Origin: a virus
Direction: 5' to 3' (one strand)
Length of the DNA: 40,097 nt
Virus record (IMG/VR): IMGVR_UViG_3300013094_000120
Coordinates: 1 to 40,097 of that record
Program-made: the position numbers and the translations under genes
The notes under the pieces: generated by a model
What the model saw: only the letters and a program-made list of their open reading frames with translations
The model's database searches: none
Told to the model about the DNA's origin: nothing
Shown here: one piece after another, positions 126 through 23,859 of the stretch
Layout: every line of letters begins with the position of its first letter
How positions within the stretch are numbered: the stretch's first letter is position 1

Positions 126-1577
126 ATGCCACGCTTATCTCTATATAAACCAGAAAAAGGGCTCGACTATAAATTTATAGATCGCCAAGCCAGCGAAATG
201 TTCCAAGTCGGGGGAGTGGATGTATACGTCCACAAATATCTTGGTTCTAATACCAGTGCTGAAAATGCCACTGCGGATCAGCCTAATTATGCCACTACCA
301 GCGTGACAAATATACAGGATTTGTTATTCCTAGAAAATCGAGATCGTACATACGATACAGAAATCTATAGAATTCGCGGCATGTACAGTGCTCAAAACAT
401 TGACTTCAATCTAAGTCAGTTTGGTTTATTTTTAGACAGTGATACTATGATGTTGACTGTGCATATTAACGATATAGTAAAAACTATTGGCCGTAAACCT
501 ATTACAGGCGATGTTTTAGAATTTCCTAATTTAAAAGATGACTTTGCTCTTAATGCACAAGATTTTAGTATGCCTCGATATTATGTGATCGACGATGTTA
601 CTCGTGCTAGCGAAGGTTATTCAGTGACTTGGTTCCCGCATTTATACAGATTGCGACTTAAACGCATAACAGATAGCCAACAATTTGCACAACTGCTTAA
701 TCAGCCTGCTACTGATGCAAATGGTGATCCAAGCAATACTACTCTCCGTGAGTTGATTAGTACTCATAATCAAACATTACAAATTAACGATCAGATAGTT
801 GCACAGGCAGAAGCCGATGCACCTAAGAGCGGATATGAAACTCGTCAATTCTATACACTAGCTGTTGATCCTACTAATGGAAAACCAGTTCTAGAAACAG
901 CAGATGAAACAACACTAGATGCTAGCAATGCCAGCTACAGAGCCAGTGAGGACAATGGTCGTCCAGTACGAACTGGCTATACTGGTTATCTAGTAGGTGA
1001 CGGCATGCCGGTCAATGGTTACGATTTTGGTCACGGTATTCAATTTCCGCCCAATGCTGGTCCGGATGACTTCTTTTTACGTACTGATTTTTTACCTAAC
1101 AGATTATTTAGATTTGATGGAAAACAAAATGCTTGGATAAAAGTTGAAGATGCTGTGCGTATGAATATGACCAACAATGATACACGAAGCACACAAAAAA
1201 CTGGATTTATTAACAACAGTTCTTATACCTATAATGAATCAATTGCTACTGATATTGCTGTGTTGAATCAAGGTGATCACGTTATCAATACTAAGATTCT
1301 TTACAGTGTTGGCAGCTCTGCTCCGTACATTGTGTTAAAATTAGGAACAGTACAATTAGAATATCAAGTGTCTGCGTATACAGGTTTAGTCACTTCATAC
1401 AATTATACTAATCCAGTAGGTGTGACCAGTACTAATTTAAAAATAACTCTACCTATTATTAACACCGAACAACAGACTATTCCCCTTGCCGGTGAATGGA
1501 CTGTGACCTTGTATAATATGAGAGAAGCTCAACGACAAAGCCTTAGTCAGGCACTTAAACCTAAGGCGGATCTATAA
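126..1577 (+). CDS. gp14-like neck protein, long form
   Basis: Probable virion neck protein that helps join the filled head to the tail, by analogy with T4 gp14. The first 180 or so residues follow the gp14 pattern: a GVDVYVHKY segment (compare GVECYYVPR in T4), a block around an SQFG motif, a TMMLTVHIND strand, a GDVLEFP turn and a long strand ending in RLRLKRI. The rest, about 300 residues, is low in cysteine and beta-rich and has no counterpart in the roughly 256-residue T4 protein. It overlaps the gp15-like gene by one base (TAATG), and this gp14-gp15 order supports the call. There is no good ribosome binding site before the start, so translation may depend on the gene upstream. The similarity is recalled, not computed, and another neck or tail-completion protein is possible. 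Confidence 0.6.
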   Translation: MPRLSLYKPEKGLDYKFIDRQASEMFQVGGVDVYVHKYLGSNTSAENATADQPNYATTSVTNIQDLLFLENRDRTYDTEIYRIRGMYSAQNIDFNLSQFGLFLDSDTMMLTVHINDIVKTIGRKPITGDVLEFPNLKDDFALNAQDFSMPRYYVIDDVTRASEGYSVTWFPHLYRLRLKRITDSQQFAQLLNQPATDANGDPSNTTLRELISTHNQTLQINDQIVAQAEADAPKSGYETRQFYTLAVDPTNGKPVLETADETTLDASNASYRASEDNGRPVRTGYTGYLVGDGMPVNGYDFGHGIQFPPNAGPDDFFLRTDFLPNRLFRFDGKQNAWIKVEDAVRMNMTNNDTRSTQKTGFINNSSYTYNESIATDIAVLNQGDHVINTKILYSVGSSAPYIVLKLGTVQLEYQVSAYTGLVTSYNYTNPVGVTSTNLKITLPIINTEQQTIPLAGEWTVTLYNMREAQRQSLSQALKPKADL

Positions 1578-3115
1578 TGCAGTTTTTCTACGACGGACAA
1601 ATACGACGCTACATTACACAGACTATTCGTGTATTAAGTAATTTTGTAGTACAATACGGCGATGGTACGCTGGTACGCATACCTGTAATATATGGCGATC
1701 AAGATCGACAGGCTGCTAGTATTATCAATCAAAATAGTGAAAACACTATTAGCAGTGCGCCAAGAATAGCAGTGTATGTTGGCAGCTTAGAACTGGATAG
1801 AGAACGATTATCTGATTCAACCTATGTAGGCAAATTAAACTTCCGTGAGCGTGATACACAGGTTGATATGGATCCTATGAGTCCTACCTATGGGCAGACT
1901 GTTTATAATCAAAATCAAGGTCGTAACTATACAGTTGAAAGACTAATGCCAACACCCTATAAATTAACTATCAAAGTTGATATTTGGAGCACTAGTACCG
2001 AACAAAAATTACAGATACTTGAACAAATACTAGTGTTGTTCAATCCTAGTTTAGAATTACAAACTACAGACAACTATATCGACTGGACTAGTTTAAGTGT
2101 TCTTAATTTAGATTCAATGTCTTGGAGTAGTCGTCAAGTACCAGTCGGTACTAACTCTCCGATAGATATAGCTACCTTAACATTAACTACTCCAATTTGG
2201 ATCAGTCCCCCAGTTAAGGTCAAGCATCTTGGTGTTATTACACGTATTGTTACTAATCTATGGGCTAATACATCTACCAGTCCAGTTGGTTATATTGACG
2301 GATTAGGTCAAGATCCTGCTGGAGCGGTAGGCACTACATCCTTTAGCGATTTATTATGGTCAAGTGACACAACTATAGGTGGTTGGGGTATACAAGTATA
2401 TGCTGGACAGGCTCAACTATTGAATCCCGGCGAAAATGTTTTACCAGCAGAACCAACATTAGATAAATCTGTAAGACAAGGTACTCCAATTAATTGGCAA
2501 ACAGCCTTTGATCAATATCCTGGAAAATATATTGCAGGCTCGAGTATGTTGTATCTTATACAACCTAATGGAACTTATGTGGTAGGAACCATAGCAATTA
2601 ATCCATTAGACAATACCATACTGCAAGTTAATTGGAATCCTGATACACTAACATCTAATACTGGTATCGATAGCACCGGAAAACTAGATACTGACGGTGG
2701 ATATAATGCTGCTGGTAGTTATAGACCTAATAGTCCTGGTACATTTGATGCTATTATAAATCCTCAAACATACGATCCTAAGAGACCAACTGGAACGGAA
2801 GAAACAGATCAAGCAGTAGCAGTGGGTACTAGATTTTTAATTGTTGAAGATCTAGGTAGTCAAGATAATCCACCTGGCACTGGACCATCTGCTTGGCAAA
2901 GCACTACAGGCACTGATTTTATTGCTAAAACAAATGATATCATAGAGTGGACTGGTACACAGTGGAATGTGATTTTTAACGCTATTCAAGAATCAGACAC
3001 TATGGTCTGGCAAACTAATATATACACTGGAGTTCAATACTTATGGAACGGAGTTTCCTGGGTCAAGAGCTTTGAAGGTGAATATGGTGCCGGCCAATGG
3101 AAAATAGTATTGTAA
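1577..3115 (+). CDS. gp15-like tail sheath stabiliser and completion protein
   Basis: Likely tail terminator that caps the contractile sheath and tube and contacts the neck. The N-terminal 230 residues carry the pattern of gp15 from T4-like marine phages: FYDGQIRRYITQ at the start, a YGDGTLVRIPVIYGD block, a SAPRIAVYVG strand, an ERLMPTPYKLTIKVDIW segment, EQILVLFNPSLE, then TNDY-type and TPIWISPP motifs before KVKHLGVIT. From about residue 235 the protein carries a C-terminal extension rich in W, G and T that makes it much longer than T4 gp15 (about 272 residues). Its start overlaps the previous stop in TAATG, with AAGGCGGA just upstream as ribosome binding site. I am fairly sure of the family; the role of the extension is unknown. 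Confidence 0.8.
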   Translation: MQFFYDGQIRRYITQTIRVLSNFVVQYGDGTLVRIPVIYGDQDRQAASIINQNSENTISSAPRIAVYVGSLELDRERLSDSTYVGKLNFRERDTQVDMDPMSPTYGQTVYNQNQGRNYTVERLMPTPYKLTIKVDIWSTSTEQKLQILEQILVLFNPSLELQTTDNYIDWTSLSVLNLDSMSWSSRQVPVGTNSPIDIATLTLTTPIWISPPVKVKHLGVITRIVTNLWANTSTSPVGYIDGLGQDPAGAVGTTSFSDLLWSSDTTIGGWGIQVYAGQAQLLNPGENVLPAEPTLDKSVRQGTPINWQTAFDQYPGKYIAGSSMLYLIQPNGTYVVGTIAINPLDNTILQVNWNPDTLTSNTGIDSTGKLDTDGGYNAAGSYRPNSPGTFDAIINPQTYDPKRPTGTEETDQAVAVGTRFLIVEDLGSQDNPPGTGPSAWQSTTGTDFIAKTNDIIEWTGTQWNVIFNAIQESDTMVWQTNIYTGVQYLWNGVSWVKSFEGEYGAGQWKIVL

Positions 3116-3546
3116 AAGAATCAATTGTATGTAGTGGTGCGTTATTTTACGCAAAAACCACTCGACGATTTCTATTGCTACAAAAAGCCACAGGTAAACA
3201 TGAAGGCACCTGGGGCCTAGTTGGTGGTACTAATATTTCCGGTGAAACTCCATGGCAAGGATTACAACGTGAGATTACCGAAGAGATTGGCAGTCTCCCC
3301 AATATCTTTAAAACTATTCCATTAGAAACATTCGTATCTAATGATCGAGTTTTTAATTTCCATACGTATTTGTGTGTTGTAGAAAATGAATTTATCCCAG
3401 TTCTTAGTGGTGAGCATTGTGCATGGGCATGGGCAACTATAGACCGTGCTCCTAAGCCATTGCATCAAGGACTGCGTAATAGTTTTAGCAGTAAAATAAT
3501 TCGAACAAAATTAAAAACTGTGTTTGATCTAGTAGATCTAATTTAA
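3097..3546 (+). CDS. Nudix hydrolase
   Basis: A 149-residue hydrolase of the Nudix superfamily, which cleaves nucleoside diphosphates linked to another group; the substrate cannot be told. The Nudix box lies at residues 44-65: G44, E50, then REITEEIG at 58-65, giving the required G-x5-E-x7-RE-x2-EE-x-G spacing with catalytic glutamates E62 and E63. The usual final hydrophobic position holds S66. An upstream TWGLVGG strand is typical. The start lies inside the end of the gp15-like gene (19-base overlap), and no strong ribosome binding site precedes it, so translation may be coupled. It is a small metabolic gene at the end of a structural block, meeting the - strand operon tail to tail. Family confidence is high; whether it clears unusual nucleotides or nucleotide sugars is open. 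Confidence 0.9.
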   Translation: MENSIVKESIVCSGALFYAKTTRRFLLLQKATGKHEGTWGLVGGTNISGETPWQGLQREITEEIGSLPNIFKTIPLETFVSNDRVFNFHTYLCVVENEFIPVLSGEHCAWAWATIDRAPKPLHQGLRNSFSSKIIRTKLKTVFDLVDLI

Positions 3547-4310
3547 ATTTTAGCTTCTTTCCTGTACTGCTTTACCATAACTAAATTAAGCTCTTGCTCA
3601 GGATTTAGTATGGCATCAAGCCCAAACAATTTTTCTTTAAATCCCGATAGTAAATTTAATTCTGAATTATTAGTTAGCGTATCAAATAATTTATCAACTA
3701 ATATGTCATGATTACTTAGACATAAGTGATTGTACCTAGTGTCCAATCCAACCCATGGTATATCTTTAACATCTTCTTGTCGAGAAATTTCTAGTAAATT
3801 TCCCTTAGAGAAAATTAGATTTGGAAAGTCTACAATCTTTTGTGGGTTGATGTCATGATTAAATCCTCCCCAAACTACTAATGGTTTTCGCCAACCTCGT
3901 ACCGTAGCAATATTGTTTAACCAACCTATTCTGTGTAAAAATGCTTGAAATTCTAATGCAGGTCGTTGTATGTGTTTTACATAGGACTCGATAGCTTTAG
4001 TGCGAGCTTTGCCTATCCGATCTATTAAGTCAGTTTCCCATATATGATAGTTGCTAACTTCTGGAAATTCTTCATAAAACCAAAATCTAGCAGGATCAGT
4101 TACTACAAAGATCAGTTGATCGTCCGGTGTTATTAGATTAGTAACAGCATCTATATATCTACAAGACCAATCCTGGCCGGCCCCTGGCATACTTTGATTA
4201 GCTAGTTTATATCCTAGTCTATTAGCAAGTGCAATGGACCAGATCCTAGGGTTAGTATGTCCTGGTGGAATATAACTGAAACTATCGCCGGTAACGTATA
4301 GGGTTGGCAT
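3543..4310 (-). CDS. SGNH/GDSL-like hydrolase-fold protein
   Basis: A 255-residue protein with an SGNH-hydrolase layout: GDSFS at residues 8-12 (nucleophile block I), an NQSMPGAGQD stretch at 38-47 (blocks with conserved G and possible oxyanion residues), an FVVTDP strand near 67-73 and a D-x4-H pair at D190/H195, followed by LCLSNH, resembling block V. Members cleave esters or move acyl groups; several phage members are annotated only by fold. There is no signal peptide. It is the last gene of the four-gene operon; its ATG overlaps the stop of the oxygenase gene (TAATG) and has no clear ribosome binding site of its own, which points to coupled translation. It could remove or add acyl groups on the same sugar the neighbouring enzymes act on. 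The fold is likely; activity is not proven. Confidence 0.65.
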   Translation of the reverse strand: MPTLYVTGDSFSYIPPGHTNPRIWSIALANRLGYKLANQSMPGAGQDWSCRYIDAVTNLITPDDQLIFVVTDPARFWFYEEFPEVSNYHIWETDLIDRIGKARTKAIESYVKHIQRPALEFQAFLHRIGWLNNIATVRGWRKPLVVWGGFNHDINPQKIVDFPNLIFSKGNLLEISRQEDVKDIPWVGLDTRYNHLCLSNHDILVDKLFDTLTNNSELNLLSGFKEKLFGLDAILNPEQELNLVMVKQYRKEAKI

Positions 4311-5035
4311 TAGTCATCAATATCTGGCATAGTGTCAGGATCATCAAACAACTCATGGGGCCTCCATGGGTTAGCTCTGGCATTTTCATGAACTACAATA
4401 TCAAACGCAATACTGACTCTTTCTTCTGGACCAGTGTATACTTCACTGTAGTGCGGTAACCAGCTGGGGAATAATATTAAATTGCCTGCATCATTTGGAA
4501 AATAACTAAGTTCTTGCTGACGTATAGGATTTTCCAATGCTAATTTAGCATGGCTATTACTTACATAGTACGTGCCGGACAAATAACTGTGTTCATCCGA
4601 CAAGTGCATGTGTCGGCTAATAAACTGATCTTTTCTAAGAACATTTGCCCAAGCATGAATGAATACACGCTTTCTAGGAAATCCTAAATTTTTTAAATGC
4701 AGTAGATAGTGACTACGGAACATATTAAAAAGATCTCTAGTTTCAGGAATAGGTGGAAACTTTTCAAACGCCTCACCGCCTTTCCTAGGAATAGAATCAT
4801 CTAATAGATGATGTTGTTTCCACTGTTGAGTATATTGATATGGATCACTATCATTTTTCGGAACTTCACTGACCAATTCTTCTTTGGCAATGATACCTTG
4901 CTCCATATCTATACAGTATTGTTTCATGGTCTTCATTAACTCAATACTGCCGTCCTTAGCGTAATATAAAGGCACTCTAAAATTTGGTGCAAATTTATTT
5001 TTAGGACGGACTCCTTCCCACCAACTTGTCGGCAT
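4310..5035 (-). CDS. 2OG-Fe(II) oxygenase family protein
   Basis: A 241-residue protein resembling the phage 2-oxoglutarate and iron dependent oxygenases (TIGR02466-like). The C-terminal half shows the expected order: a histidine cluster RHMHLSDEH at 141-149, the SGTYYV strand at 153-158, a DAGNLILFPSWLPH block ending in H195, and EERVSIAFDI with R206 as likely 2-oxoglutarate anchor. Such enzymes hydroxylate protein, nucleic acid or small-molecule targets. The N-terminal 120 residues are charged and not recognised. AGAGGAA six bases before the ATG is a good ribosome binding site, located in the end of the carbamoyltransferase gene, two bases away. The exact iron ligands among H142, H144 and D147 are uncertain. 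The target is probably shared with the other enzymes of the operon, which is inference. Confidence 0.8.
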   Translation of the reverse strand: MPTSWWEGVRPKNKFAPNFRVPLYYAKDGSIELMKTMKQYCIDMEQGIIAKEELVSEVPKNDSDPYQYTQQWKQHHLLDDSIPRKGGEAFEKFPPIPETRDLFNMFRSHYLLHLKNLGFPRKRVFIHAWANVLRKDQFISRHMHLSDEHSYLSGTYYVSNSHAKLALENPIRQQELSYFPNDAGNLILFPSWLPHYSEVYTGPEERVSIAFDIVVHENARANPWRPHELFDDPDTMPDIDD

Positions 5036-5037
5036 AA

Positions 5038-6816
5038 TTATTCCTCTGAGTCTGAATCTTCTGCGTTTACATTGCCTGGAATATAGACTAATTTGCCGAC
5101 TTCTGGCAGATACAAGTACTTTAATTCACTACGACGCAGGGTGCTTAGTGCATCATCGATTGTTTCCACCAGCGGATCTCCACCTAAATTGAAACTAGTG
5201 TTAAACAATATAGGAGTGCCAGTAGCAGTATTAAATGCACTGATTAGATTATAATAGTGTAGATTCTGTTCTGCTGTTACTGTTTGAATACGGCAAGTGC
5301 CATCGACGTGAATAATGCTTGGAATCTTATCGGCAACACCGGGTTGGCAATTAACAGCATACATCATAAATGGACTGTTATCCATGCCTCGTAGATCGAA
5401 CCATTCGTGTACATTTTCTTCTAGGATTGTGCCGGCAAACGGACGGAACCATTCACGATGTTTAACTCCATTAACAATGTCTTTACCATTTTTAACACGT
5501 GGATCAAACAGGATCGAACGATTACCTAGAGCACGTGGACCACCTTCTGATCCGCCTTGATACATACAGACAATCTTTTCGTCAAGCAACAACTTAACTA
5601 TGTCATCATAACTAGCGTCAGTAACTGTTTCACCTGCAGATGCGTCTAAATCTAACTTATAGTCACCATACTTTTCAAAGTAGTTAGGACCATAGTAAAT
5701 GGTCTTAGGCTTGCGTATGGTCATATCATTAAATTCAGTGTGATGAATAAACTTAGCGGCACCAATACATGTACCACCATCATGGCTAATTGGTTCTACA
5801 TATAGATTAACACCTTCTGGCAAGTGTGCTAGATATTCGTAGTTAGCCACACAATTAAGACCAAAGCCGCCAGCGATACAGATGTTAGTTTGTCCAGTAC
5901 GCTCGATAGCATCTAGGATCAATCGGACCATTTGTTCTTGACAAGCCTGTTGTACAGCAAATGCAAGATCCTGTGCCATTTCAATACTATCTGTATCAAG
6001 TGCTGGGAACAATGTTCTATCAACATAGGCACCGTTAGGGTAGTTGGGCACGAACAGATTACGATTACTTAAATGACGTGCTTCTTTGCCATGGAAAATA
6101 AATGGTATCTTATCATTAGGCTTGCCATATGGTGCAAGACCCATGGCTTTGCCTGCTTCGATAAATGGAAAACCGCAATAGTTGGTCATTGCTTCGTATA
6201 CTTTGGTAATGCCTGGATGATCTGTAAAGATCACATCATGGATATCTTGCGGTTTACCGCGATTATCGTGTGGACAATTTAATTTTTCATAAATTGTTTG
6301 AGGTCCACGTACTCCAATGTGTTTGAATTTAGTGGCAAAATCGCCTGGATAACTTGCACTAAAAATTGTTTCTAGTTCAAAACCAGTAGTTTCACCTAGA
6401 GGAATAAATGTACCAGCACCGTCAACGATTAATACAGCAGCTTCTTTGAATCCACTGTTATAAAATGTGCAGGCTGCATGTAATTCATGATGTATCATAC
6501 CTAGGTCAACTACCTGCGGGTGAGTTTCTACATTAAGATTTTCAATCAGGCCAATTTTTCTAGCAAATCCAGTGTACATGTCGTCACCGGTAAAATCAAT
6601 AGTACCAGCTTGAGATAGAGGCTGTGTATGTGCAACCACTAGATAATCAAGTTTATCAGTATATTCTTTGATCTTTAACATGCCTGCTAAAGGTCCACCG
6701 TCATATTTTTTACGGCTAAGACGTTCTTCTTCTAGATAGAATACTACTTCACCGTCTTTTAATAAACATGTAGCACCATTGTGACCACGTGTAATACCTG
6801 CAATCCATTTTGCCAT
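5038..6816 (-). CDS. NodU/CmcH-family O-carbamoyltransferase
   Basis: A full-length 592-residue carbamoyltransferase, which moves a carbamoyl group from carbamoyl phosphate to a hydroxyl, via an adenylated intermediate. The N-terminal ASKHA/Kae1-like domain begins with GITRGHNGATCLL and carries the metal site HHELHA at about 109-114, a VDGAG loop near 131 and AGGFGLNC near 312. The C-terminal YrdC-like part shows LGNRSILFDPR near 427 and FNTSFNLGGDPLV near 536. Family members act on Nod factors, cephalosporins and other sugars or natural products; phage members have been linked to carbamoylation of 5-hydroxymethylcytosine in DNA. GGAGAA precedes the ATG, and one base separates it from the glycosyltransferase stop. 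The substrate here is unknown: sugar on a virion or host glycan, or DNA base. Confidence 0.95.
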   Translation of the reverse strand: MAKWIAGITRGHNGATCLLKDGEVVFYLEEERLSRKKYDGGPLAGMLKIKEYTDKLDYLVVAHTQPLSQAGTIDFTGDDMYTGFARKIGLIENLNVETHPQVVDLGMIHHELHAACTFYNSGFKEAAVLIVDGAGTFIPLGETTGFELETIFSASYPGDFATKFKHIGVRGPQTIYEKLNCPHDNRGKPQDIHDVIFTDHPGITKVYEAMTNYCGFPFIEAGKAMGLAPYGKPNDKIPFIFHGKEARHLSNRNLFVPNYPNGAYVDRTLFPALDTDSIEMAQDLAFAVQQACQEQMVRLILDAIERTGQTNICIAGGFGLNCVANYEYLAHLPEGVNLYVEPISHDGGTCIGAAKFIHHTEFNDMTIRKPKTIYYGPNYFEKYGDYKLDLDASAGETVTDASYDDIVKLLLDEKIVCMYQGGSEGGPRALGNRSILFDPRVKNGKDIVNGVKHREWFRPFAGTILEENVHEWFDLRGMDNSPFMMYAVNCQPGVADKIPSIIHVDGTCRIQTVTAEQNLHYYNLISAFNTATGTPILFNTSFNLGGDPLVETIDDALSTLRRSELKYLYLPEVGKLVYIPGNVNAEDSDSEE

Positions 6817-6817
6817 A

Positions 6818-7747
6818 TTATTCTCCGACCTTATCTTTAATATCTTTCATAATGCTTTTAATCATTTCTTGTTCTTCTTGTTTGCTAAAATTCATCACTG
6901 TATCGTTGACTCTATCTGCTAAGTGTGAATCATAGTCACTAACTCTAATTGGACTATATTTTTTAACTGCACCCTTCTTTTCATAAATTTTAAAATAATC
7001 AGGATAGGTAACATTCACAGCATAAGTGCTGCCTATAATCACAGATCCCGGCTTGTTAAAAGTATAGGCAATATGTTGCCCCACACTATCACAGCCAATA
7101 AAGTAGTCACATTGATCAATAGCCGCAGCCCAATATCTCAGTGATATATTTTTTGGAATAATTGCGTACTCGTCATTTGGCGTGGGAATCTCTGTCATAC
7201 AAATTAGATTATACTTGGTTCTAATCGCTTTTGCAAGCTCTAAATAAGTATTAGATTCTAAACTACGTGAACTTTGGTCAATCATTACACCTAAGTTCTG
7301 TTCCATAGTAACGCCACGGCCGTATGGTTGTATAATAATTGTTTTCTTTTTCTTGTGTGCTTCTTTGGCTGTTTTAATTACAGCCATGCCATTTAGTTCT
7401 TCTTCTTTGTTTAAGAAGATTTGGGCACGTTGTTGTTTTTCAGTAATTGGAGTGCCATTGATTAGTTTATCAAATGCCTGGGTAATACTACAACGTTGAT
7501 TATAGTAGTCATTGTCTCTATAGGGTTCTGGGCTGATAATTTCGCCGTCTTTGATAAATTGATCAAACAGATCTTTATGATTGCTTGGATATGTTCTATC
7601 TTGTAAATTTGGATTACCTAGAATAAAATCCATACCCGCTTCTGAAACTATGATGCCGTCTGGATTATTTTGGGCAAACTTTTCCAATGCTGGCAATGCA
7701 CATAACATACGTCCAGCACCACCATTAATAAAAACAATTTTTCTCAT
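6818..7747 (-). CDS. GT9-like glycosyltransferase
   Basis: A 309-residue GT-B-type glycosyltransferase resembling family GT9 (LPS heptosyltransferase-like). The N-terminal Rossmann half starts with KIVFINGGAGRMLCALPAL, the place where GT9 proteins hold a glycine-rich loop. The donor-binding half has TIIIQPYGRG near 135-144 and the diagnostic CDYFIGCDSVGQHIAYTF segment at about 212-230, followed by KPGSVIIGST. The C-terminus is lysine- and glutamate-rich. It is the first gene of the operon with the carbamoyltransferase, oxygenase and SGNH-like protein. Its ribosome binding site AGGAG (7757-7753) lies in the stem of a strong hairpin, so translation is probably restrained. It may attach the sugar that the later enzymes modify; donor and acceptor cannot be told from sequence. 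Confidence 0.8.
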   Translation of the reverse strand: MRKIVFINGGAGRMLCALPALEKFAQNNPDGIIVSEAGMDFILGNPNLQDRTYPSNHKDLFDQFIKDGEIISPEPYRDNDYYNQRCSITQAFDKLINGTPITEKQQRAQIFLNKEEELNGMAVIKTAKEAHKKKKTIIIQPYGRGVTMEQNLGVMIDQSSRSLESNTYLELAKAIRTKYNLICMTEIPTPNDEYAIIPKNISLRYWAAAIDQCDYFIGCDSVGQHIAYTFNKPGSVIIGSTYAVNVTYPDYFKIYEKKGAVKKYSPIRVSDYDSHLADRVNDTVMNFSKQEEQEMIKSIMKDIKDKVGE

Positions 7748-7750
7748 GAG

Positions 7751-7799
7751 ATCTCCTCTATGAAGTTATTTAACTGTGTAGATAACTCCTAGAGGAGAT
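7751..7799 (-). promoter_or_regulatory. Hairpin that buries the ribosome binding site of the glycosyltransferase
   Basis: In the - strand transcript, bases 7799-7790 and 7760-7751 form a perfect 10-bp stem, with a small internal loop and a second 6-bp stem (7787-7782 with 7769-7764). The 3' arm TAGAGGAGAT contains the AGGAG ribosome binding site, five bases before the ATG at 7747. The paired 5' arm is ATCTCCTCTA. An alternative short hairpin can form from CTCC and GGAG within 7798-7787, which would free the site. Only the bases are seen; the switch is inferred. Confidence 0.7.
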
Positions 7800-7810
7800 T
7801 CTGAGCGGAT

Positions 7811-7845: not shown

Positions 7846-8187
7846 TTATGCCGGTGGAGGGCCGCTTTTTTCCAATGTGGGTTGCCAAACTGCATCTGGA
7901 TGCTCTGGAAACTTTACTTGGAATGGTTGTAAGTCTGCTGCTTGAGAATCCTTAATGATATCACGTAGTTGTTGTTTGTACAGTCTATAAGCTGCAATCA
8001 TAGCAGGTGGACTGTCAAAATTATAACTGTTTTCTACAATGTGTAATTCAGCATCTCTTTTCATTCTCACATCATCCCAAGTCATTTGGGAGTTAGTTTC
8101 ATGAGCCGCTTGAATATGCGGTTCATCTATGTGACTTGGATCACTTAGTACGGGTGTAAATTGATTTGGTTGTTGAATTTCAGCCAT
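7846..8187 (-). CDS. Small tail-assembly-chaperone-like protein
   Basis: A 113-residue acidic protein. Residues 35-101 follow the pattern of phage tail assembly chaperone domains (Phage_tail_APC type): TWDDVRMKRDAEL, a central IAAYRLYKQQLRDI helix, and a proline-rich FPEHPDAVWQP end. The same pattern occurs at residues 121-187 of the 337-residue protein at 9175-10188. Such proteins help fold or trimerise tail fibres or tail tips and are often next to them, as here with the glycine-rich adhesin candidates. AAGGAAT seven bases upstream is the ribosome binding site. It is the last gene before the two hairpin elements and the enzyme operon. The assignment rests on a pattern match by eye, so it is moderate. 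Confidence 0.5.
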   Translation of the reverse strand: MAEIQQPNQFTPVLSDPSHIDEPHIQAAHETNSQMTWDDVRMKRDAELHIVENSYNFDSPPAMIAAYRLYKQQLRDIIKDSQAADLQPFQVKFPEHPDAVWQPTLEKSGPPPA

Positions 8188-8196
8188 TTTTATTCC

Positions 8197-9162
8197 TTAG
8201 TAAGTAATACGAACGTAGCCTGGGGCACCGTGGCCACCTGAACTACCTGAACAGCAGCAACCAGATTTTACACCAGCTGCACCGCCACCGCCTGGGAAGT
8301 TACCATTTGTTCCTGGATATTCACGACCACAGCATAGCCAACCAGTCGAAGTTGAACATGTGTACCAGCCTGAACTAGGTACGTTAAATGCACAATAGCC
8401 TGTAGCTACACCAGCAATACCGTTTGAGTTAGTACAACCGGTATTAAATGCATAATAGAACCAGCAGTTACAGTCTGCGTTCCATTGCTGAGGGCTTGAA
8501 CCCCAACCGCTAGCAGCACCCCAGTTCATCTGTTGTGAACACTGTCCATCACAGCCCCAGCTCATAGCAACGCCTGGACCGATGGCAAGATCTCTAGTAC
8601 CTTGGTTGAACGTGGTAAATGCACCGCATGCTGTTTGTGTGGCATCTAGCAATGGACTACCGCCGCAACCATAGTATACGCAACCACAGCTTTCATAGCA
8701 CTGTGAATAACCAATGAGTCCACCGCTAGCATCTACTAAAATTGTACCGTTACAAGCTACATATGAACAGGCACCCTGACCACCGCAACAGCAATAACTG
8801 GCTGTGGATTCATTACCAGCGCCACCACGCCCGCCTGCACCTGCACATAGAGTCAGTGTAACACCTGGTGTCACAGGAAGTGTGTATTTACCATAAGTTG
8901 CACCACCGCCACCTGGGTGTGTGCCGCAGCACTCACCACCTGATCCTGCACCACCACCGCCACCTGCACCCCACAATTCTACTTGAATCTGTGTAACGCC
9001 GGTTGGTACGACCCATGCACAACAGCAACCTGCAGGGACATAAGAACCCTGGTTACATGCGCAAAAGTTTTCCATAGCATCTCTGGTTGCACTGCAACCA
9101 AAAACTTCTTGAGTACGGAATCGTTTAGTTACTGCTTTACATAGTGTATATACGCCTGGCAT
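8197..9162 (-). CDS. Glycine- and cysteine-rich tail-fibre adhesin candidate 1
   Basis: A 321-residue protein built around a glycine-rich domain like those of phage tail-fibre tips (Gly_rich_2 type). A WVVPTGVTQIQVELWGAGG strand-turn near 50-69 leads into polyglycine runs, then PGVTLTLCAGAGGRGG, more glycine loops, and a C-terminal GHGAPGYVRITY that ends the protein as in its two paralogues. It has about 32 cysteines (10%), often in runs of two or three at the edges of glycine runs. The first 45 residues differ from the paralogues (CKAVTKRFRTQEVFG). AAGGAGC precedes the start. Polyglycine sandwiches are known in S16-type gp38 receptor binders; the cysteines are unusual and might form disulfides or bind metal. 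It sits between the two chaperone-like genes. A receptor-binding role is inferred. Confidence 0.65.
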   Translation of the reverse strand: MPGVYTLCKAVTKRFRTQEVFGCSATRDAMENFCACNQGSYVPAGCCCAWVVPTGVTQIQVELWGAGGGGGAGSGGECCGTHPGGGGATYGKYTLPVTPGVTLTLCAGAGGRGGAGNESTASYCCCGGQGACSYVACNGTILVDASGGLIGYSQCYESCGCVYYGCGGSPLLDATQTACGAFTTFNQGTRDLAIGPGVAMSWGCDGQCSQQMNWGAASGWGSSPQQWNADCNCWFYYAFNTGCTNSNGIAGVATGYCAFNVPSSGWYTCSTSTGWLCCGREYPGTNGNFPGGGGAAGVKSGCCCSGSSGGHGAPGYVRITY

Positions 9163-10204: not shown

Positions 10205-11071
10205 TTACATCCAAATTCTTACTAGTCCTGGGGCGCCATCGCCACCGCAGGAACATACATTACAGCAGCAGCTTACTGCGCCGCCAGTGCCACCGCCGCC
10301 TGGGAACATGCCGGTAAATCCGCAAATACCAGCCGAACGATCCCAACCGTTATTCCAAGGAATATATCCTGTACCAAATATGTATGTGCAGGCCGCATAG
10401 CCCATGAATATCTTTTTACCACCCATTGGAGAACCGCCGCCCCATGTCATGAATCGACAGTTATAACTACTTGAGTCTGATCTCCAGCTTCCGCCATCTT
10501 CGCCGCGAACGTTAAGTACGCCGCCAAACGCACATGCACCGTTGGCGCTTGTATAACCACCTGATGCGTTGTTGCATCGACTTTCACCACCATATCCGCC
10601 TTCTGCACAGAAGTTACTTAGGCCGTAGCCTGTAATAAAGGTGCAACCACCGCGGCAACCGCAACAGCATAAATTGTTGTTAGCCCAGTTACTTGACCCC
10701 TTACCACCGCCAGGACCACCATAGCCTACACAGATAGTGTATTGGCAACCTGGCACAGTATTAATAGTACCAGAGCGACTATATCCGCCGCCGCCTCCAC
10801 CCCATCCTGTTGTACAGCATGAGCAGCCTGCAGATGTGCCTCCGCCGCCACCTCCACCCCAAATTTCAAAAGTAACAGAGCAAACACCTTGAGGCACTGT
10901 CCAAAGCGCACAGTAACCGGTTGATCCACTTCCTTGGTAGTTACTGCCTGGGGAACCAATATCTTGGCAACCACCAGAACCACCTGTAAATTGTACTAGA
11001 CAAGTACCAGATCCATAATAGGTACCGGTACTATTGTCAACTGTTATTGCTTGTGTAATATAACGTGGCAT
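10205..11071 (-). CDS. Glycine- and cysteine-rich tail-fibre adhesin candidate 2
   Basis: A 288-residue paralogue of the proteins at 8197-9162 and 11081-11971. It starts MPRYITQAITVDN, has the WTVPQGVCSVTFEIWGGGG strand and turn near 57-75, PGCQYTICVGYGGPGGG near 106-122, a TFITGYGLSNFC segment shared closely with candidate 3, several glycine loops with large variable insertions, and the closing GDGAPGLVRIWM. About 25 cysteines are present (near 9%), with a CCCNVCSC cluster close to the end. AAGGAG precedes the start, and the next gene upstream ends ten bases away. The core suggests a polyglycine sandwich at a fibre tip; the loops would be the receptor-contacting parts. That role is inferred from family and context. 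Confidence 0.65.
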   Translation of the reverse strand: MPRYITQAITVDNSTGTYYGSGTCLVQFTGGSGGCQDIGSPGSNYQGSGSTGYCALWTVPQGVCSVTFEIWGGGGGGGTSAGCSCCTTGWGGGGGGYSRSGTINTVPGCQYTICVGYGGPGGGKGSSNWANNNLCCCGCRGGCTFITGYGLSNFCAEGGYGGESRCNNASGGYTSANGACAFGGVLNVRGEDGGSWRSDSSSYNCRFMTWGGGSPMGGKKIFMGYAACTYIFGTGYIPWNNGWDRSAGICGFTGMFPGGGGTGGAVSCCCNVCSCGGDGAPGLVRIWM

Positions 11072-11080
11072 TTTTTCTCC

Positions 11081-11971
11081 TTAGTACCAAATCTTAACTA
11101 AACCGGGAGCTCCAAAGCCACCGCAATTACAACATGAGCAGTTATCAACGTTGGCCATAGCTGAACCACCGCCTCCTGGAGTGAAACCAGCTTGACTTGG
11201 CCAATAACCACGACAGCAGTTCATCCAACCGCGATATCCGCCCTGCCCGCCACCTGGGCCACCTGCATTACCACCGTAACTCTCTGAACGGCAACCGCTT
11301 GATGAACAACCAAGGCTTGTGCCGCCCATACCGCGTGTTACTACTGCACAACCACCTGGGTTTGGTGCACCGCCTCCACTGGTAATACCCGGAAGGATTC
11401 CAGTTGCTAGACCGCAACCGTAGTTACATTGATTAGTTCCGTTGCATGAAAAATATGTATTACAACCTGCACAACCACCACACCCTGGTGTTACACAGAA
11501 GTTATTTAAATTGTAGCCAGTAACATATGTAAGGCCGCCGGAGCAACCACATGCTACACTAACGCCCGGTTGACTATTGCCACCCGCACCGTCTTGGCAC
11601 ACTGCTCCCCACCATGCTTGACCGCCGCCACCTACACAAACAGTGTATTGACATCCAGGTGCCGTTGGCACTGTGATACTGGCATAACCACCACCACCAC
11701 CTCCAGGTGTTGCTTGACAGCAGCAGCAGTCACCTGCACCACCACCACCTCCACCTGCACCCCATGCTTCAACAACAATACTGTTTACACCCTCAGGTAC
11801 AGTAAATTCATAGCAACAGCTAGCACAAGCACAGTAGCTCGGATATCCTAAGCCGCCGGTAAATGCGCAAACACGTCGCTGACGACAAATAGTTTGTCCA
11901 GCGGATGTGATTGTAGAATCGTCGACGTAATAGACGTCTGTTCTGTTTGGTAAGTCTTGATAGCGACCCAT
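11081..11971 (-). CDS. Glycine- and cysteine-rich tail-fibre adhesin candidate 3
   Basis: A 296-residue paralogue of the two preceding adhesin candidates. It shows FTVPEGVNSIVVEAWGAGG near 55-73, a GDCCCCQ run, PGCQYTVCVGGGGQ near 104-117, TYVTGYNLNNFC near 147-158, multiple glycine loops, and the terminal GFGAPGLVKIWY. I count 31 cysteines (over 10%), which is extreme for a virion protein. The first 45 residues are a distinct N-terminal piece that probably anchors the protein to a fibre. GGAGG before the start is the strongest ribosome binding site of the three. It is the first of the cluster to be transcribed on this strand, directly after the small beta-rich protein at 11973-12308. Confidence 0.65.
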   Translation of the reverse strand: MGRYQDLPNRTDVYYVDDSTITSAGQTICRQRRVCAFTGGLGYPSYCACASCCYEFTVPEGVNSIVVEAWGAGGGGGGAGDCCCCQATPGGGGGGYASITVPTAPGCQYTVCVGGGGQAWWGAVCQDGAGGNSQPGVSVACGCSGGLTYVTGYNLNNFCVTPGCGGCAGCNTYFSCNGTNQCNYGCGLATGILPGITSGGGAPNPGGCAVVTRGMGGTSLGCSSSGCRSESYGGNAGGPGGGQGGYRGWMNCCRGYWPSQAGFTPGGGGSAMANVDNCSCCNCGGFGAPGLVKIWY

Positions 11972-13269: not shown

Positions 13270-16200
13270 TTAATGTTGCCCGAAGAATACAAGGGCAACG
13301 GGCGAACCGTCAATACCACCTGTAAACGTCATTTTTGCATCTACTAATATACTGCCGCCAGTTGTGTTGAAAATTGTATTATTTGCAATTTCAATTTGAC
13401 CGGCCGTTAGTGTATTTACGTTCAATGTACTAGATCCACCACCAATTTGGGCTGTAATAAAGCTCTTAATAGCCTTTTGTGTTGGTAAAATGTTATCACT
13501 GTTAGCTGTGAAGTATGGATCTGTACTAAATTGTGTAATTGTAGCTGATCCAACACCTAGGTTAATTTGTCCCAGTGTCAAGCTCTGCAAACCAGCCAAG
13601 TTAAACGCACTAGCGTTCAATGTAGCAGTACCAGTTGCCTGTTGTACACCAAAATATCCACCAACGCTAAAGTTACCATCTTGGTCAGTACTTGTAAAGA
13701 ACACACGTCCACCTGCTGTAGCAGCTTCTTGCTGGCTTTGTACAGCAGTAGAAGCGTTAACATATGGATAGTTTGTGGCAGTAAAGTTACCTGTACCGAT
13801 ATACAAGAAGTCATGTCCTGTTAAACGTACCTGACTATACTTCAAATTAGTAGTAATCAATGTGCTGCCAGCTGGAGCATTGTATGCTGTTAGTGGAGGA
13901 CTAATCTGGAACTGTGCAGAATATGCTCCTGCAATACCTAACTGATTAGTAATCGCTACTAGTTTATACCAAGTATTTGGATTAGTACCAACATAAATTA
14001 ATGTTGCTGTGCCATCTGATGCTGTGCCGCTAGTAAAGCTAGGTGCTGTAGTACCAGTTGTACCTGCTGCTGTTACTTTATAAACGTTGTAGTAATATGT
14101 TGTTACTCCGGATACTGTAGTAATAGTTGTAGCAATTAGCTGTACACCAACTGATACAGGAGTGCTTGGTGTCCATGTAGTTCCTGCGTAGATAGTACCA
14201 AACTGTAAGTTTGCACCTGCACTTGGTAAACTAAACACATTGTTTACGTTAATGTAACCACTGTTCTGATAGATATCAGCAGCACCGTCACCGCTGGCCT
14301 GATAATAGCCACCACCTGTGCTTGATGTTGCTGTAGTATTAGCAGTACCACGAGTAATAAATGTTGGATTACCTAGCGCACCTACACCAGTACGTACACG
14401 ATATAGTGCAGCAGTATTATGGTTAGGATCAGTTAGTGTGCTTGATGGTCCAGCTGTATAAATCATTGTTGCACCAGGTGTAACTGTATTTAAACTCACT
14501 GGAGTGCTGCTGCCAGCTGTAGCAGTAACCTTGAACTGAGTTGTAGTTACTGTTGAGCCAATTACATAGTAAGTTACGTTAGTGCTGACACCACCGTAAC
14601 TGGCGCTAAATTCAATCGGTTGATTGTTAGCTGAACTTGTGCTCAAGTTAGTTGTATCATCAACTGTGAACAAGTTGCTGCTAGATCCAGTGATCGCAAG
14701 TACGTTACCTTTTGGATATCCGCTACCTGGCTCAACCAGTCGAATCTCTGTAACTGCATTGCTGGCCACTTTTACACGACCTAATGCTGTTGCACCAGTA
14801 CGTATGCTAGCACCTACTGTTCCGCTAGTTGCAGATACCGCAGCAAATATTGGTTGAGCACCTAGTGTAGTTGTGCTTACACCGGTAACAGTACCAGCGA
14901 CAGATTGTGCAGCGGTAGTTGTATTGGCATAACTTACACTGGTTGTAGAACAACTAGTTACAGTATAGGTACCATTATAGCCACTAGGTGTAACTCCTGC
15001 TACAATAATGCTCTGTCCAACTGCATATGGAGCCACTGTTTGAGCGTTAAACGAAATTGTTGCTATTGAGCCTGTGCCAGTAGTACCCGAAGTGACTACA
15101 GTTGTAGTGCTTGGGTTACCAAATGCTAGGCCAGTCCAGTTAGAACTACTTGGCATTACTTGATCGTTCCAAGTTACTCCATCTACGCTGGTTGCGCAAA
15201 TATTTGTACCTGTGGCAATTGCCATGAATAGACCTTCACCATAGACAACCTTTTTCCAGGTTGAAATTGTAGGATCAAGTCCAGCTGGGCTTGCAATCCA
15301 TACTGTGCCATAGTTAGTATTTCCAGAACCTTGGTTAATTGTATATGCTACGCTGCCGTTAGCTGCAATAGCCACAAAGCGTCCATTACCCCATGCTAAA
15401 CTTACCCAGTTTGTTGAACTTGGAAGATTTCCACCTTGTGTCCAAGCTACTGAGTTAGTTGAGTAACTGGTAATGTTTCCACCACCACCGTTAATGGCCA
15501 TAAAGTAGCCGCCACCAAATGCCACAGCTGAATAGTAACCTGTGCTTAGTCCAGTAATGCCTCGACTAATCCATGCACTTGTTGGTTGGGTAGCAGTTAC
15601 ACAAGTTGCTGTGCCGCTGGCTCCGCCAACTGCTACCAAAACTCCATTACCCCATGTAAGAGAATACAGATTTGAGAAGTTGGTTGAGGCGCCAGCTGTC
15701 CAAGTTGTGCCACCATTAGTACTGTATGCGGATACCGCACTATTGCCTGAAATAGCCCAGAAACCATTATAGTATGTACTAGTTAGATTTGTACCGTCAG
15801 TAATAGTAACAGTCGGAGTAAACGTGTAACCATATCCAGGTTGTACCAGTGTGTAAACTGCTGCACCATTATTAGTTAGTGCTACTGTAGCAGTTGCTAG
15901 TGTACCTACATAGGTTAAAGTCACTGTACCATTAGATTGATTACTTGCACCCGATGGAGATGAAGAACCTAATGTTGTACCACCCGATGCTTGATAGTAA
16001 TAAGTGACAAATGTTATGTTATTATAGTAGGAAACATAACTGCCGTTAGCTGCTGTACCTCCACTTGACCATGCTGTTGCTGTAAATGGTGCTTGTATGG
16101 TTACTACAGGAGCTACTTGATATCCTGATCCCCATGTTATTGGGTTGATAGAAGTTACAATGCCAGTTGATGCTACTACTGTTGGTGCTGATGAATAACC

Positions 16201-19200
16201 AGAACCATTAATTGTTATACTAACTGCTTGAACTACACCGTTCAATACAGTACATGTTGCTGTTGCACCAGAGCCGCCACCACCGCTAAACACTAGTGTT
16301 GGTGGTGTTGTATAGTTTAAACCTCCATTGGTTACTATTACGTTAACCACTTGATTGGCAGTTGTACCTGTACCTAATACTGCTGTAAATGTTGCACCAG
16401 AACCACCTAGTCCACCAACAACTGCTGTTGCTGTTGCACCTTGACCGCCTGTGAATTTAACATCAACCCAGTTAGCTGAACTTGGTAGGGCTCCACCGCT
16501 TGACCATGTTTTACCGTCAATAGATGTAGCTGTTGCTGTACTGCTGCTGCCAGCGACTGCTACAAATTTAGCATTACCATAGGCTGCTGCTGTCCAACTG
16601 GCTGTTGCTGGCAATGTTCTTGCTGTTGAAGTAAATCCAGGAGAACTGTAATTGATACGTGGTTCAATAATGTATGTCGATGTTAGATCTAATGTAGTTA
16701 CGGCCGCATTGCTACCTGGAACAACGTGATCCCAACCTGCTGCGTACAATGTAACGGTCTGTCCGCTAGTTGCTGTTAGGCCAGTAATAGTACTTCCACC
16801 AAATGTTATAATACCAGTAGTGTTGTTGACTATCGGATTGCTGATTGTAAATGATGTACCATTAACTATTGACTGTACAAAGTACAGTGAGTTTACAGTT
16901 AAACCAATATTTGCAGCACCTGTTCCTAAATAGATTGGCATTCCAGCGTATAATGACGCTGTGTTGGCCACAGTCAATGCTGTTGTGCTGGAACCAGTAA
17001 CTGTCAAGTTAGTAAAGCTATCTCTATACACCTGAGCAATCTTACTTGCATTACTGTAAGTCAGAATGTTAGCATATTGGCCGACACCTGTACCAGCTGT
17101 TATCTGGATGCGCATACCTGGATAGGCTGTACTTGGTTGAATATCAGTTGCAGCAATAGTGATGTAGCCAATTGTACCAAACTGTGCCGCATTGGTTGCT
17201 GTTACATAACTAGAACCACCAGTTAATCCAGTATTGTTAGGATCAATTAAACGTGTTTCAAATACTGCGGCATCACGGAATTCATCCTGTGTCACTGTTG
17301 GAGGAACACCTGCACCACTAACAGTGGTTACTGTGTTAGTATAGCCACTACCAGCATTGCCAAACTCTAAGCGTAATACCTGCTGAGTAGTATCTGTTGG
17401 TGTATTGGTGATAGTTGCTGCAAAATACTTGTTGAGTAAATTAGCATACAGTGGTGTTTCAAATGTATCAGTACCTTCAGCAGTTACACCATATGTACCG
17501 TATGAGCTGTTACCGTTGGTAGCACGGATGCGTCCACCTAATTCTGCTAGGTATCCAGAGTAGCTGTAGTAACAGAATACTGAAACAAGTTCTGTTAATG
17601 ATGCAGATCCAGTTACCCAGTATCCAATACCATCAGATAATACAGTAGTATAGTCGTTAGCAACCATAGAACGGTTACCACCAGCGTGTAATGCACCATC
17701 GACTTTACCACCTGTACAACCGTTACCAAACATGGTACAGTTTTGTGTATAGCATGATCTGCTGATTACCCAAGCAGTGCTGTCATTTGGTCCATATCCT
17801 GGATCTAATGAACTATAAGCACCCGCTGTTGGACGTTTTGTACCGTATGCGTTTGCTGCGGTTAATGTACCGTTCAAGCCGGTCATTGTTAAGTTACGGA
17901 TACCGCAACCGTTGCGTACTTGGAACATATTAGACAATGTTGAACCAGTTACTGCATTATTATAAAGTTCAGCAGCTCTCATTGACTTATAGTTACCTGT
18001 ATACTGTAGATCATAAATCAAAGCGTTGATAAATGCTGTTGTATCACGTAGACACTTACTTTGACTGTAGTAATAGTTTACCGTTACTGATCCAGAGCTT
18101 GGTGCTGTAAGTGTAGTTTGTAATGGAACAAATTGTGTAGAACCAATAGTAAATGTCGTAGCACTTGGCACGGCGATTACATAGTAAGTTGTAGCAGTAG
18201 CAAGACCGCCAAATGCTGTTCCGGTAAACACAACTGGATCCCCAGCAACAAAGTTGTGTGCTGATGATGTAGTAATTACATTGTTAGTACCTGTAATAGT
18301 AGTAGAACTAACTGTTTGACTTACGCTAACAGTCCATGTTCCAGCACTTGCACTAATTTGATTTACAATGTAAGTACCAGCAGTTACACCAGTACCTGTT
18401 AGCGTCATGCCAACTGTAAATGTTCCGCCACTAACAGTAAACACTGTACCAGTGATTGAACCTGTACCGCTAGTAGTTGAAGCACTAATGCCTGTAGCAG
18501 TACCGCCATAACTAGCACTAATATATGCTGCTGCCTCATAGGCTAAGAATGTTGTATTAGCACGTAGTACTTCTGCACCTTGAATTGTAGTTAATGTATC
18601 ATTATATGTTAATGTACCGTTAGTAATTACAAAACTTGAATAAGGATTAATAGTATTAGAAATACCTGCTGTAGCAGTAGCAGTCATACTGCTTACTGTA
18701 TTGGTAATTGCGTATGCTGATCCACTCTTATAACTGTTAGTCACAGTTAATGTCGTACTGCTTGGAATTGAGTTAATCCAATAAGTGTTATTTGCCCATA
18801 ATCCGCCAGCATTGTTTACAAATGCGTTCATAGTACCGCTGGCTGTTGCAAGAACAACCGCACTACCGCCTGATGTTAAACTAATTTGTATTGTGCTGCC
18901 TGATGGACTTAGTACATAATACATCTGATTAGAAATAACGTTACCAATCGCACTTGTAAAGTATATTTGTTGACCTGCTACAATACCTAAACTTGATGCT
19001 GTAGCAGCAAGTGTAATTACGTTAGTGCTGGCAGTTGTTGCTGAAGCAGTTGTTGTAATAGGCGCTGGCAATCCAACAAATTTAATAGGCATATTGACCG
19101 ACATACCAGTAGTACTGCTCACTGTCAATACGTTCGTTGATGTTGTTGCTGTAGTTAATGTTGGAGTTGCTGTTACAGTTACGTTACCGGTAACTGCTAC

Positions 19201-22200
19201 GGAACTACCTGCAGCAAATACGCTGCCATTGTATGTTGATGATACAGTAATTGTTGTAGCATATGCTGTTAGGATGTAGTATGGAGTACCTTGTACTAGA
19301 TTACCTAGATTAGATCCAAACACTACAGTATTTCCTACAGCCATGTTTGCTGTTGAAGTTACTGTAATATTGTTATTGATAACAGAAGTTGCATAAGTTG
19401 ACTGAGTGACTGTTCCATTAATCATGGTAACGATGTCGTCAATAACTGTTTGAGATTGAGCAACTGATCCACTAGCAGCAATTTCTTTAACTTTGTAGGC
19501 AATAAATTGAATTGCACCCAATGTAGCTGTCAATTCATTTTGATTGTTTGCTAATAGAGCCTGCGCACTGGTATTTAGGCGATTAAACGCACGGCCAGCG
19601 GCAATACTGTTAAAGTTAGTACCAAATACCAGGTCATAACTTAAGGCAGTGGCAACTAATCCTGCATCACGATTTGTCAATGACTGGCTTATATTGTTAG
19701 ATTGGAAATACTTGTAAACCCAGTATTGTGCATCACTAGCAATTTCGCTATTTCTAGCCTGTACTGCGTTAAATGCGTTTTGAGATTGCGCACTAGTCAA
19801 GGCAATGGCTGCTGTTGGGTATACTGTTGCGTCACCGTAACCATTGTTAATCCAGTCGATAACGTTTTGTACTAGACCCTGAACGACGGTTCCTGTGGTT
19901 GCATTACCGACTGATCCACTAGTAGATTGGTTAGCAATATATGGTGCAGTCTGACTGCTTGGGGTCACTGTTGTACCTTGTACAATCTGGCCAACCACAG
20001 TCTTCAAACGTGTCAATGCTCCTAGGAATGATGCTAGGTATGCAGAGTTAATTTGGCTTACACTTAGTGAGTAGTAAGAACTACCATTGATATTACTTGC
20101 AGTATTACCACCATAGGTCATGTCGTACACTAGACCGTCTAGAATAAATCCAACATCACGCAATGTTTCATATTGGTTAACTGTACCAAATGTTGCCCAA
20201 ATTGAATTATAGTTGTTGTTTAGATAGTTAGCGATTTCATCTTTGATGAATACATAGTTATTTTGTAACTGAGTAACAGCATTTCCGTATGTTGCAAGGA
20301 ATGTGGTATTATAACCTGTTACAGTTGGTAGATTAAATGCCGGTGCTTGTTGAGCACCATTACTAATCATGTTGGTGATTATTGAAGCATTGTTTACTAC
20401 CAAGTTGATGGCTGTAGTGTTTCCAGTATCACCTGCTGGTAATGCAGTAACTTGGCTAGAAACTGTTCCAGCAACTGTCTGCGGACCACTGGTCGATCCA
20501 GTAAAACTTACATAGCTTAAGCCGGCAGCAGTAACAATTTTTGCTCCATTAAATCCAGTTGGAGTTACACCACTAACTGTAATGTATTGACCAACTGTAA
20601 ATGGTGCTGTTGTCTGTTGTGCGAATGAAATTGTTGAAACACCACCTGAACTGCTAGCACCAGTAGTTGCTAGTGACTGTGAATTACCAGTAGTTGCTGT
20701 TACTACAGTATTGGTTAAAATATTTGGTAGTAATGACTGAATACGAGTTAGGGCAGCAATTGATTTTGGTTTGTCGTTGACTAAATTAACGTTGGCTACC
20801 GCTGGTTGAATAGTAGTACTGCGTAGCTCGTCGCCGACAACTGCTGTGTTTGCAGGTAATACAATTGGTAGTACTTCATTAAATGTGCCTGTCTTAACAC
20901 TGATAGTAGTGTTAGGATTCTGTACACTTGGTAGTAATGCTGTATTTTGATTAGCTAATACGGTATTGATAAGACCAATTAGGTAACTAGCAGTTGTGCT
21001 AGTATTTGATTCAGCTGTATAGTTGGTATTAATCTGCTGAGTAGCTGCCAATGGGGCAACTGTACCTGCAACAGTCTGTGGTCCTAGTGTTCCTGCTAAG
21101 GCAAAACTCACACTAGTAGTAGTACAAGCTGTTACTAACCACTGCCCGTTAAATGCAGTAGGTGTTACACCAGCAACAGTAATGAAGCTACCTACGGCAT
21201 AGGGAGCCGCAGTTTGAGTTGCAAATCCTATAGTAGCTGTTCCACCGGTTGCACTGGCACTAGTGGTTGTAATTGCTACAGTATTTTGTGCTTGATAGTT
21301 TGTGCTAGGTGCAGTATTTGATAATACTTTGCCTGTTAATGTCTGCAAATATGTCAGTGCTTTGGTAAATGGAATAATATCATAAGCGCCAACACCACTA
21401 GCAAGTGTTACACTTGGGTATGGCGAAGCAAAATATGCCTGAGCCTGAGCAATAGTTTTTTGTGTGCCACTGTGGCCAATATCAAACATTACTGCTTCTA
21501 AGATTGTGCCTGTATCGCGTTCAGTTTTGCTTTGACTATATGAGTAGGTGCCTGTCATTGTTGTACTGCCTGCACCAGTGATTGAGAACGCTACAGAACT
21601 ACCATATGTAGATGTAATTGTAAATGTTGCTGCTGCCGGAGTTACTGTTAATACATAATAGGTCTGACCTGCTGTAACACCACCACCAGTACCGTTGAAT
21701 ACAATAGGCATACCAGAATACATGTTAGCTGTGCTGGCTGCTGTAAATAGATTACCTGTTGCATTGTACGCTGTAATAGAATATGTATAAGTGTACAATA
21801 TATAATTGTTAATTTCTTTCATCATGAACTGTTTGTTCAATCTTAACAATGTTTGAGCGTTAGTGTTTAAGTAGCCTTCTTCAACCTGTTTAGCTGCATA
21901 TCTAACAGTTGCCCATGGTTTATCTATAGTTGTACCTTGTCCATTGGCTACTGTGTCAGTACCTGCTGGAGAAACGTAAACAACGTTATTAATTTGTCCA
22001 TAATATGCCCATGACGGTGCATTATTATTAACACGTAATACTTGACCATCAGTACCGATCGGTAGTCTTACAGGACCATTTGATCCGTAGTAGACCATGT
22101 CGCCCTGTGTTGTCATCACTGCTGCTTCAACACCGCTGGCTAATAAATTCCAATAGGTACCTGATGTGTCTGCATCTGGACGATTGCCACTTGATGCTAC

Positions 22201-23811: not shown

Positions 23812-23833
23812 TTTAATTTATTCCTTCTGATAG

Positions 23834-23841: not shown

Positions 23842-23859
23842 CTAATCACAAATTCGGGG

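Follow-up and report, generated by a model that had tools for sequence, protein, structure and literature searches.

A GT9-fold protein and a carbamoyltransferase encoded side by side near the tail-fiber genes of large phages: a candidate module for virion glycan modification

Numerous large aquatic phages, of at least two backbones, carry, together with their tail-fiber genes, what is apparently an obligate gene pair as judged from gene order: a GT9-like glycosyltransferase (GT) and an O-carbamoyltransferase of the NodU/CmcH/TobZ type (CT). The two backbones, in both of which the pair lies near the tail fibers, are those of T4-like cyanophages and of PA5oct-like jumbo phages. The reading that we prefer, tentatively and while granting that it falls somewhat short of probable, is that GT and CT belong to a late, virion-directed module, by which a heptose-like sugar would be transferred and then carbamoylated, probably on fiber-tip proteins; that the fiber would be the acceptor is suggested solely by the genomic neighborhood. 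Phage-borne modification of glycans is already known as a kind, and the GT-CT module would vary on that theme. The proposal offers a concrete candidate function for the ‘LPS gene clusters’ of large cyanophages, in which several of the genes T4-GC 302-308 co-occur and which in 2010 were left undecided between being functional and being ‘stuffer DNA’ (Sullivan, 2010; PMC3037559). If true, the receptor-binding tips of phages are chemically capped or diversified, with a likely bearing on the range of hosts infected in aquatic ecosystems.

Gene Order and Linkage

The window, the whole stretch of DNA analyzed here (40,097 nucleotides), is a 40-kb virus record and a fragment of a larger genome. Four minus-strand ORFs run near-contiguously from 7747 to 3543; the first and second are 1 base apart, the second and third 2 bases, and the last two overlap by 1 base. 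They encode GT (6818–7747, 309 aa; phrog_8954), CT (5038–6816, 592 aa; phrog_1601), a 2OG-Fe(II) oxygenase (4310–5035, 241 aa; PF13759) and a divergent SGNH-like protein (3543–4310, 255 aa). GT and CT are homologues of the cyanophage genes T4-GC 302 and T4-GC 303, respectively. The first-pass annotation had described a four-gene run behind the fiber-tip genes, and the run is real, down to its coordinates, gaps and overlap. The enzyme identities given there were essentially right as well; what was missed is that the genes are linked to the heptose pathway and that the GT9 catalytic Asp is absent.

Upstream of GT, across a gap of 98 bp, lies the gene of a small tail chaperone-like protein (7846–8187, minus strand; Phage_tail_APC, PF16778), a weak match (E 6.5e-4) below the Pfam cut-off. 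Beyond it, on the same strand, are genes for Gly/Cys-rich fiber-tip proteins (PF21722), one at 8197–9162, which is a candidate acceptor, and two more at 10205–11971. Downstream of the four-gene block, a plus-strand Nudix hydrolase gene (3097–3546) converges with the SGNH gene and overlaps its end by 4 bases. Then come gp15- and gp14-like genes, the gp15-like tail sheath stabilizer (1577–3115, plus strand) marking the boundary of the fiber region. The Nudix gene belongs to the gp14/gp15 side. The nearest relatives of the window gp15 are those of Phosso, PA5oct and Atu_ph07 (29–35% identity), jumbo phages of about 285–490 kb. Many of the fetched loci keep a Nudix gene adjoining gp15, and so do PA5oct-like Pseudomonas phages.

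Relatives of GT number at least 554 in viral contigs. The best 80 of these were retained and, with reference phages and the window, make up the 87 GT loci considered here. CT is downstream of GT on the same strand in all 87, at a distance of 50 bp or less in 69; in the remaining 18, genes for one protein or two, each about 300 aa long, stand between them. GT followed by CT is also the order in every cyanophage and marine-virus phage record with GT. Fiber-tip or chaperone genes lie within two ORFs of the module in 56 of the 87 loci, which is a lower bound; the gp13 and sheath models of the neighborhood survey matched fibers and were ignored. The view that the four genes are an indivisible unit is rejected: GT and CT alone are invariant, and the 2OG and SGNH genes come and go. 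Outside the window, the full order GT-CT-2OG-SGNH is confined to the near relatives L009 and L012, and to L014 with a different SGNH. The chance neighborhood that the first-pass annotation had allowed for, with the genes unlinked in relatives, is thus not what is seen for GT and CT, and is seen in part for the full four.

A genome scan returned nine full-length GT matches, each on a contig from a MAG bin and each with the GT-CT pair, and most of these contigs have phage fiber-tip/chaperone genes. We therefore reject GT as a bacterial acquisition; the subfamily looks phage-specific as far as searched. A functional annotation was previously lacking, T4-GC 302 being an unnamed hypothetical protein in cyanophages (Sullivan, 2010; PMC3037559).

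The Two Core Proteins

By sequence, CT is certainly a NodU/CmcH/TobZ-type carbamoyltransferase. Both Carbam_trans domains are found (PF02543, 1.8e-26; PF16861, 5.7e-57), with scores of 93.9 and 192.4 bits against cut-offs of 24 and 27. Residues H109, H113 and D346 and the motifs GPRALG and FNTSFN are invariant in six phages; the HxxxH...D residues we take, by analogy, to be metal ligands.

The kinship of GT is more distant. Its matches to PF01075 (13.2 bits, E 0.055; gathering cut-off 22) and to NCBIfam TIGR02201 (21.2 bits, E 1.3e-4; cut-off 170) are both below threshold, and no GT9 chain came up when the PDB sequences were searched with the profile of GT. GT9 was detected by comparison of folds and of profiles with profiles alone, the latter with the E. 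coli heptosyltransferases WaaC/F/Q/U (E 8.7e-8). The AlphaFold model is confident (pLDDT 92.3). Its top fold matches are the GT9 structure 3tov (Z 21.6), TibC (20.2), WaaF (19.2) and WaaC (17.8), and non-GT9 enzymes stay under 12, with the exception of plant NDH subunits at about 17. GT is thus predicted to have a GT-B fold of the GT9 type.

The active site is partly retained. In the profile comparison D220 and H225, invariant in 42 sequences, align with D261 and H266 of WaaC, and R161 falls at about WaaC K192. At the position of WaaC D13, the catalytic Asp of GT9/TibC-type enzymes, GT has R13, and the residue is Arg in all 42 aligned relatives. By eye the two N-termini are collinear (GDVLHTLPAL in WaaC, GRMLCALPAL in GT), placing G12-D13 of WaaC opposite G12-R13 of the window protein. 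As the catalytic Asp is replaced by an invariant Arg, classical GT9 catalysis by GT is unassured. The protein may use another base or a different chemistry.

The autotransporter heptosyltransferases TibC/BAHT share the GT-B/GT9-type fold with GT, and in them too an adhesin acceptor is encoded nearby, a likeness that is hypothetical for the phage protein (PMC4358343). GT differs from them not only in its Arg. It is without their N-terminal β-barrel, residue 1 of the model aligning to TibC residue 97, behind the barrel; and it is without their four-Cys iron finger, no CxxC being present in its sequence.

A Link to Heptose Synthesis

ADP-heptose pathway genes are found on the same stretch as GT-CT in 40 of the 87 loci, typically straight behind CT. 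Their best NCBIfam matches are heptose families (HldD-type, 3.3e-54; kinase, 1.2e-39; adenylyltransferase, 2.5e-35; GmhB, 1.4e-39). In G001, a 280-kb relative with a jumbo backbone and the SGNH flavor of the module, an operon of cupin, adenylyltransferase, kinase and epimerase genes lies about 90 kb from GT-CT. ADP-heptose is a putative donor of GT, and linkage to these genes is what points to it. The other 47 loci have no heptose gene within the fetched stretch, the 40-kb window among those fragments without one, and no adenylyltransferase or epimerase of heptose type was detected in the 223-kb record G002. The sugar may therefore differ in such phages or be host-derived. The GmhA isomerase (PF13580, SIS-type) was absent from the eight records searched, so the isomerase step would need host supply. 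The cyanophage T4-GC 306 genes, annotated ‘phosphoheptose isomerase’, resemble HAD phosphatases (TIGR01689), as does L006 10470–10874; the isomerase annotation is likely mistaken. Adjoining the heptose operon of G001 there is, by eye, a 5-aminolevulinate synthase-like (α-oxoamine synthase) gene (L103 5431–6771).

Accessory Genes

The 2OG and SGNH genes are recurrent, exchangeable accessories around the GT-CT core, and the ADP-heptose pathway is another exchangeable one. The sequence leaves the 2OG-Fe(II) oxygenase identity certain (PF13759, 7e-15, 55.7 bits against a cut-off of 27; phrog_81, 2.3e-25). Alike oxygenases, with the H...H...R motif kept, are directly behind CT also in L013, L014 and L015, and in L014 an SGNH/DUF6071-like gene comes after the oxygenase.

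The SGNH-like protein of the window has no match in Pfam, PHROG or NCBIfam, and the call draws on its relatives. The protein has a GDSF block I, N38 and G43 of block II, and His195. Within the family G8 and S10 are invariant and G43 nearly so, giving the Ser of block I and the Gly of block II; the family profile matches the GDSL esterase 3hp4 at 7.4e-4. For block V (Asp-x-x-His), His195 is invariant, with an Asp at −3 in the relatives only and at −5 in the window; block III, where SGNH enzymes have an Asn, reads W-S-x-x-x-R in the relatives. The structural model is unreliable (pLDDT 47.5) and was left out of the fold search. With the model poor and the catalytic Asp off its usual place, any role of the SGNH protein in the module is a guess. 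The proteins inserted between GT and CT in 18 loci make up one family, with an SGNH-like signature by eye (GCSYT/GCSFT, NxGxxGxGN, DxHPS), and this family is distantly alike to that of the window SGNH (hhalign P-value 4.8e-5, 68 columns, probability 68%).

SGNH and heptose genes are together in none of the 87 fetched loci, where about 13 would be expected if they were independent. We claim no functional exclusion, because the types are clade-structured and G001 carries both, far apart. In another locus a luciferase-like monooxygenase gene (L024 7614–8615; PF00296, 4.9e-33) and several 2OG oxygenase genes are just upstream of GT-CT.

Expression Signals

In 18 of 63 non-redundant loci the late promoter box of T4 type, TATAAATA, is present without mismatch 10–110 nt upstream of GT, against 2.3 expected from a Markov model. 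The box was found in none of the 63 on the antisense strand and in none of 70 loci upstream of CT. A box at GT without one at CT fits a single late GT-CT transcript. The window GT has no late promoter upstream, exact or with one mismatch, so that the case for a late operon comes from the relatives. What the window does have is a strong RNA hairpin (7743–7805, minus strand) in the 75-nt GT leader (−27.8 kcal/mol for the leader), which encloses AGAGGAG, the likely ribosome-binding site. L013, L014 and L015 have hairpins in the same place at the GT start, but of other sequence. Hairpins of this kind in T4 keep early read-through transcripts of some of its late genes silent. By analogy, the hairpin at the GT start suggests a T4-like control of late translation.

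Comparison with Known Systems

The closest counterparts are the cyanophage ‘LPS gene clusters’ of P-SSM2 and S-SSM7 (T4-GC 302-308), which have homologous GT and CT in the same order beside fiber genes (PMC3037559). In those clusters heptose genes follow CT, whereas the window has the 2OG and SGNH genes in their place, and its backbone is that of a PA5oct/Atu_ph07-like jumbo phage rather than of a T4-like cyanophage. The host recognition cluster of pelagi- and cyanomyophages occupies the same niche, between fiber genes and gp14, and also has glycosyltransferases and rfaE; its enzymes are mostly GT8 and are read as modifying the host O-chain, and a carbamoyltransferase goes unmentioned (PMC7029224).

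Among bacterial enzymes, WapO, the LPS-core heptose O-carbamoyltransferase of Pseudomonas, provides a precedent for carbamoylated heptose (PMC8005017). Like the phage CT, it is a carbamoyltransferase linked with heptosyltransferases, the likeness being one of description; unlike CT, it is a chromosomal LPS gene. TibC is the precedent for heptosylation of a protein (PMC4358343).

Proposed Function and Its Rivals

We envisage that ADP-heptose would be supplied by phage or host enzymes, and that the GT9-fold protein would move heptose or a heptose-like sugar onto Ser/Thr of a fiber-tip or other virion protein. CT would carbamoylate a hydroxyl of the sugar via carbamoyl-adenylate, as is thought for WapO on LPS core heptose. 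The oxygenases could vary the product by hydroxylating protein or sugar, and the SGNH proteins by adding or removing acyl groups. The likely benefit would be a variable, chemically capped adhesin surface. The first-pass annotation had left the target between virion, host glycan and phage DNA. The virion is now better supported, favored by the fiber-tip neighborhood, the late-promoter signal and the recurrence in two backbones, and the case for DNA is weakened. It is rather doubtful that the proposal holds in its most specific form, with an Arg-for-Asp GT9-fold enzyme and an obligate CT putting carbamoylated heptose on fiber tips, and with the module exchanged horizontally among unrelated large phages. 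If real, such a glycan would be of a virion type absent from the literature searched. That search, with subscription literature outside it, found no work joining phage, carbamoyltransferase, heptosyltransferase and tail fiber in this sense.

A serious rival, unlikely as we think it, is a late change of a glycan on the host surface, in the LPS core or the O-chain, that would block superinfection or keep progeny from sticking to debris. GT would add the heptose-like sugar and CT would carbamoylate it, on the pattern of the Pseudomonas LPS core. LPS is the normal target of GT9 enzymes and of WapO (PMC8005017), the glycosyltransferases of the host recognition cluster are read in print as O-chain modifiers (PMC7029224), and the genes of the heptose pathway are classically LPS genes. 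The late-promoter signature 5′ of GT and the association with fiber tips argue the other way, as does the presence of the protein-acting TibC among the nearest folds, and no lipid-carrier or export gene was recognized in the operon. Quite improbable, in our estimate, is that GT is inactive as a transferase and serves as a sugar- or ADP-binding scaffold, recruiting or activating CT, which would carbamoylate a fiber protein or sugar directly. The invariant R13 where WaaC has D13 would fit, the 1:1 pairing with CT resembles that of partner proteins, and the plant NDH supercomplex subunits share the fold. Against this, GT keeps the other GT9 features (D220, H225 and R161) and many further invariant residues, and has heptose-making genes alongside.

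Very unlikely is hypermodification of phage DNA, with GT and CT making, for example, a carbamoylated, glycosylated base that would protect against host nucleases. Phage glycosyltransferases often modify DNA, and a phage-borne carbamoyltransferase of the same family as CT, from a phage metagenome, acts on 5-hydroxymethylcytosine (PMC8670742). It is only in modified contigs, however, that this enzyme is accompanied by thymidylate-synthase-type genes, and carbamoyltransferases flanked by (group 1) glycosyltransferases sat in unmodified ones (PMC8670742). The hydroxymethylase that the first-pass annotation proposed to look for elsewhere did not turn up: no ThyA-type gene (PF00303) accompanies GT-CT in 11 related records, which include those of 280 and 223 kb and whose completeness is not established. 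Tet/JBP was not found either, in a search without a positive control, and the module sits in a virion locus.

The virion proteins of the window have features of their own. The tip proteins (8197–9162 and 10205–11971) are about 10% cysteine (25–32 Cys per ~300 aa), which is unusual for a phage fiber; comparable Cys-rich tips are seen at L006 5117–5965 and L007 10016–12292. Further on (13270–33240) come two giant genes of the virion, coding for 3513 and 3126 aa, and each has four carbohydrate-binding stretches of the CBM_5_12 type.
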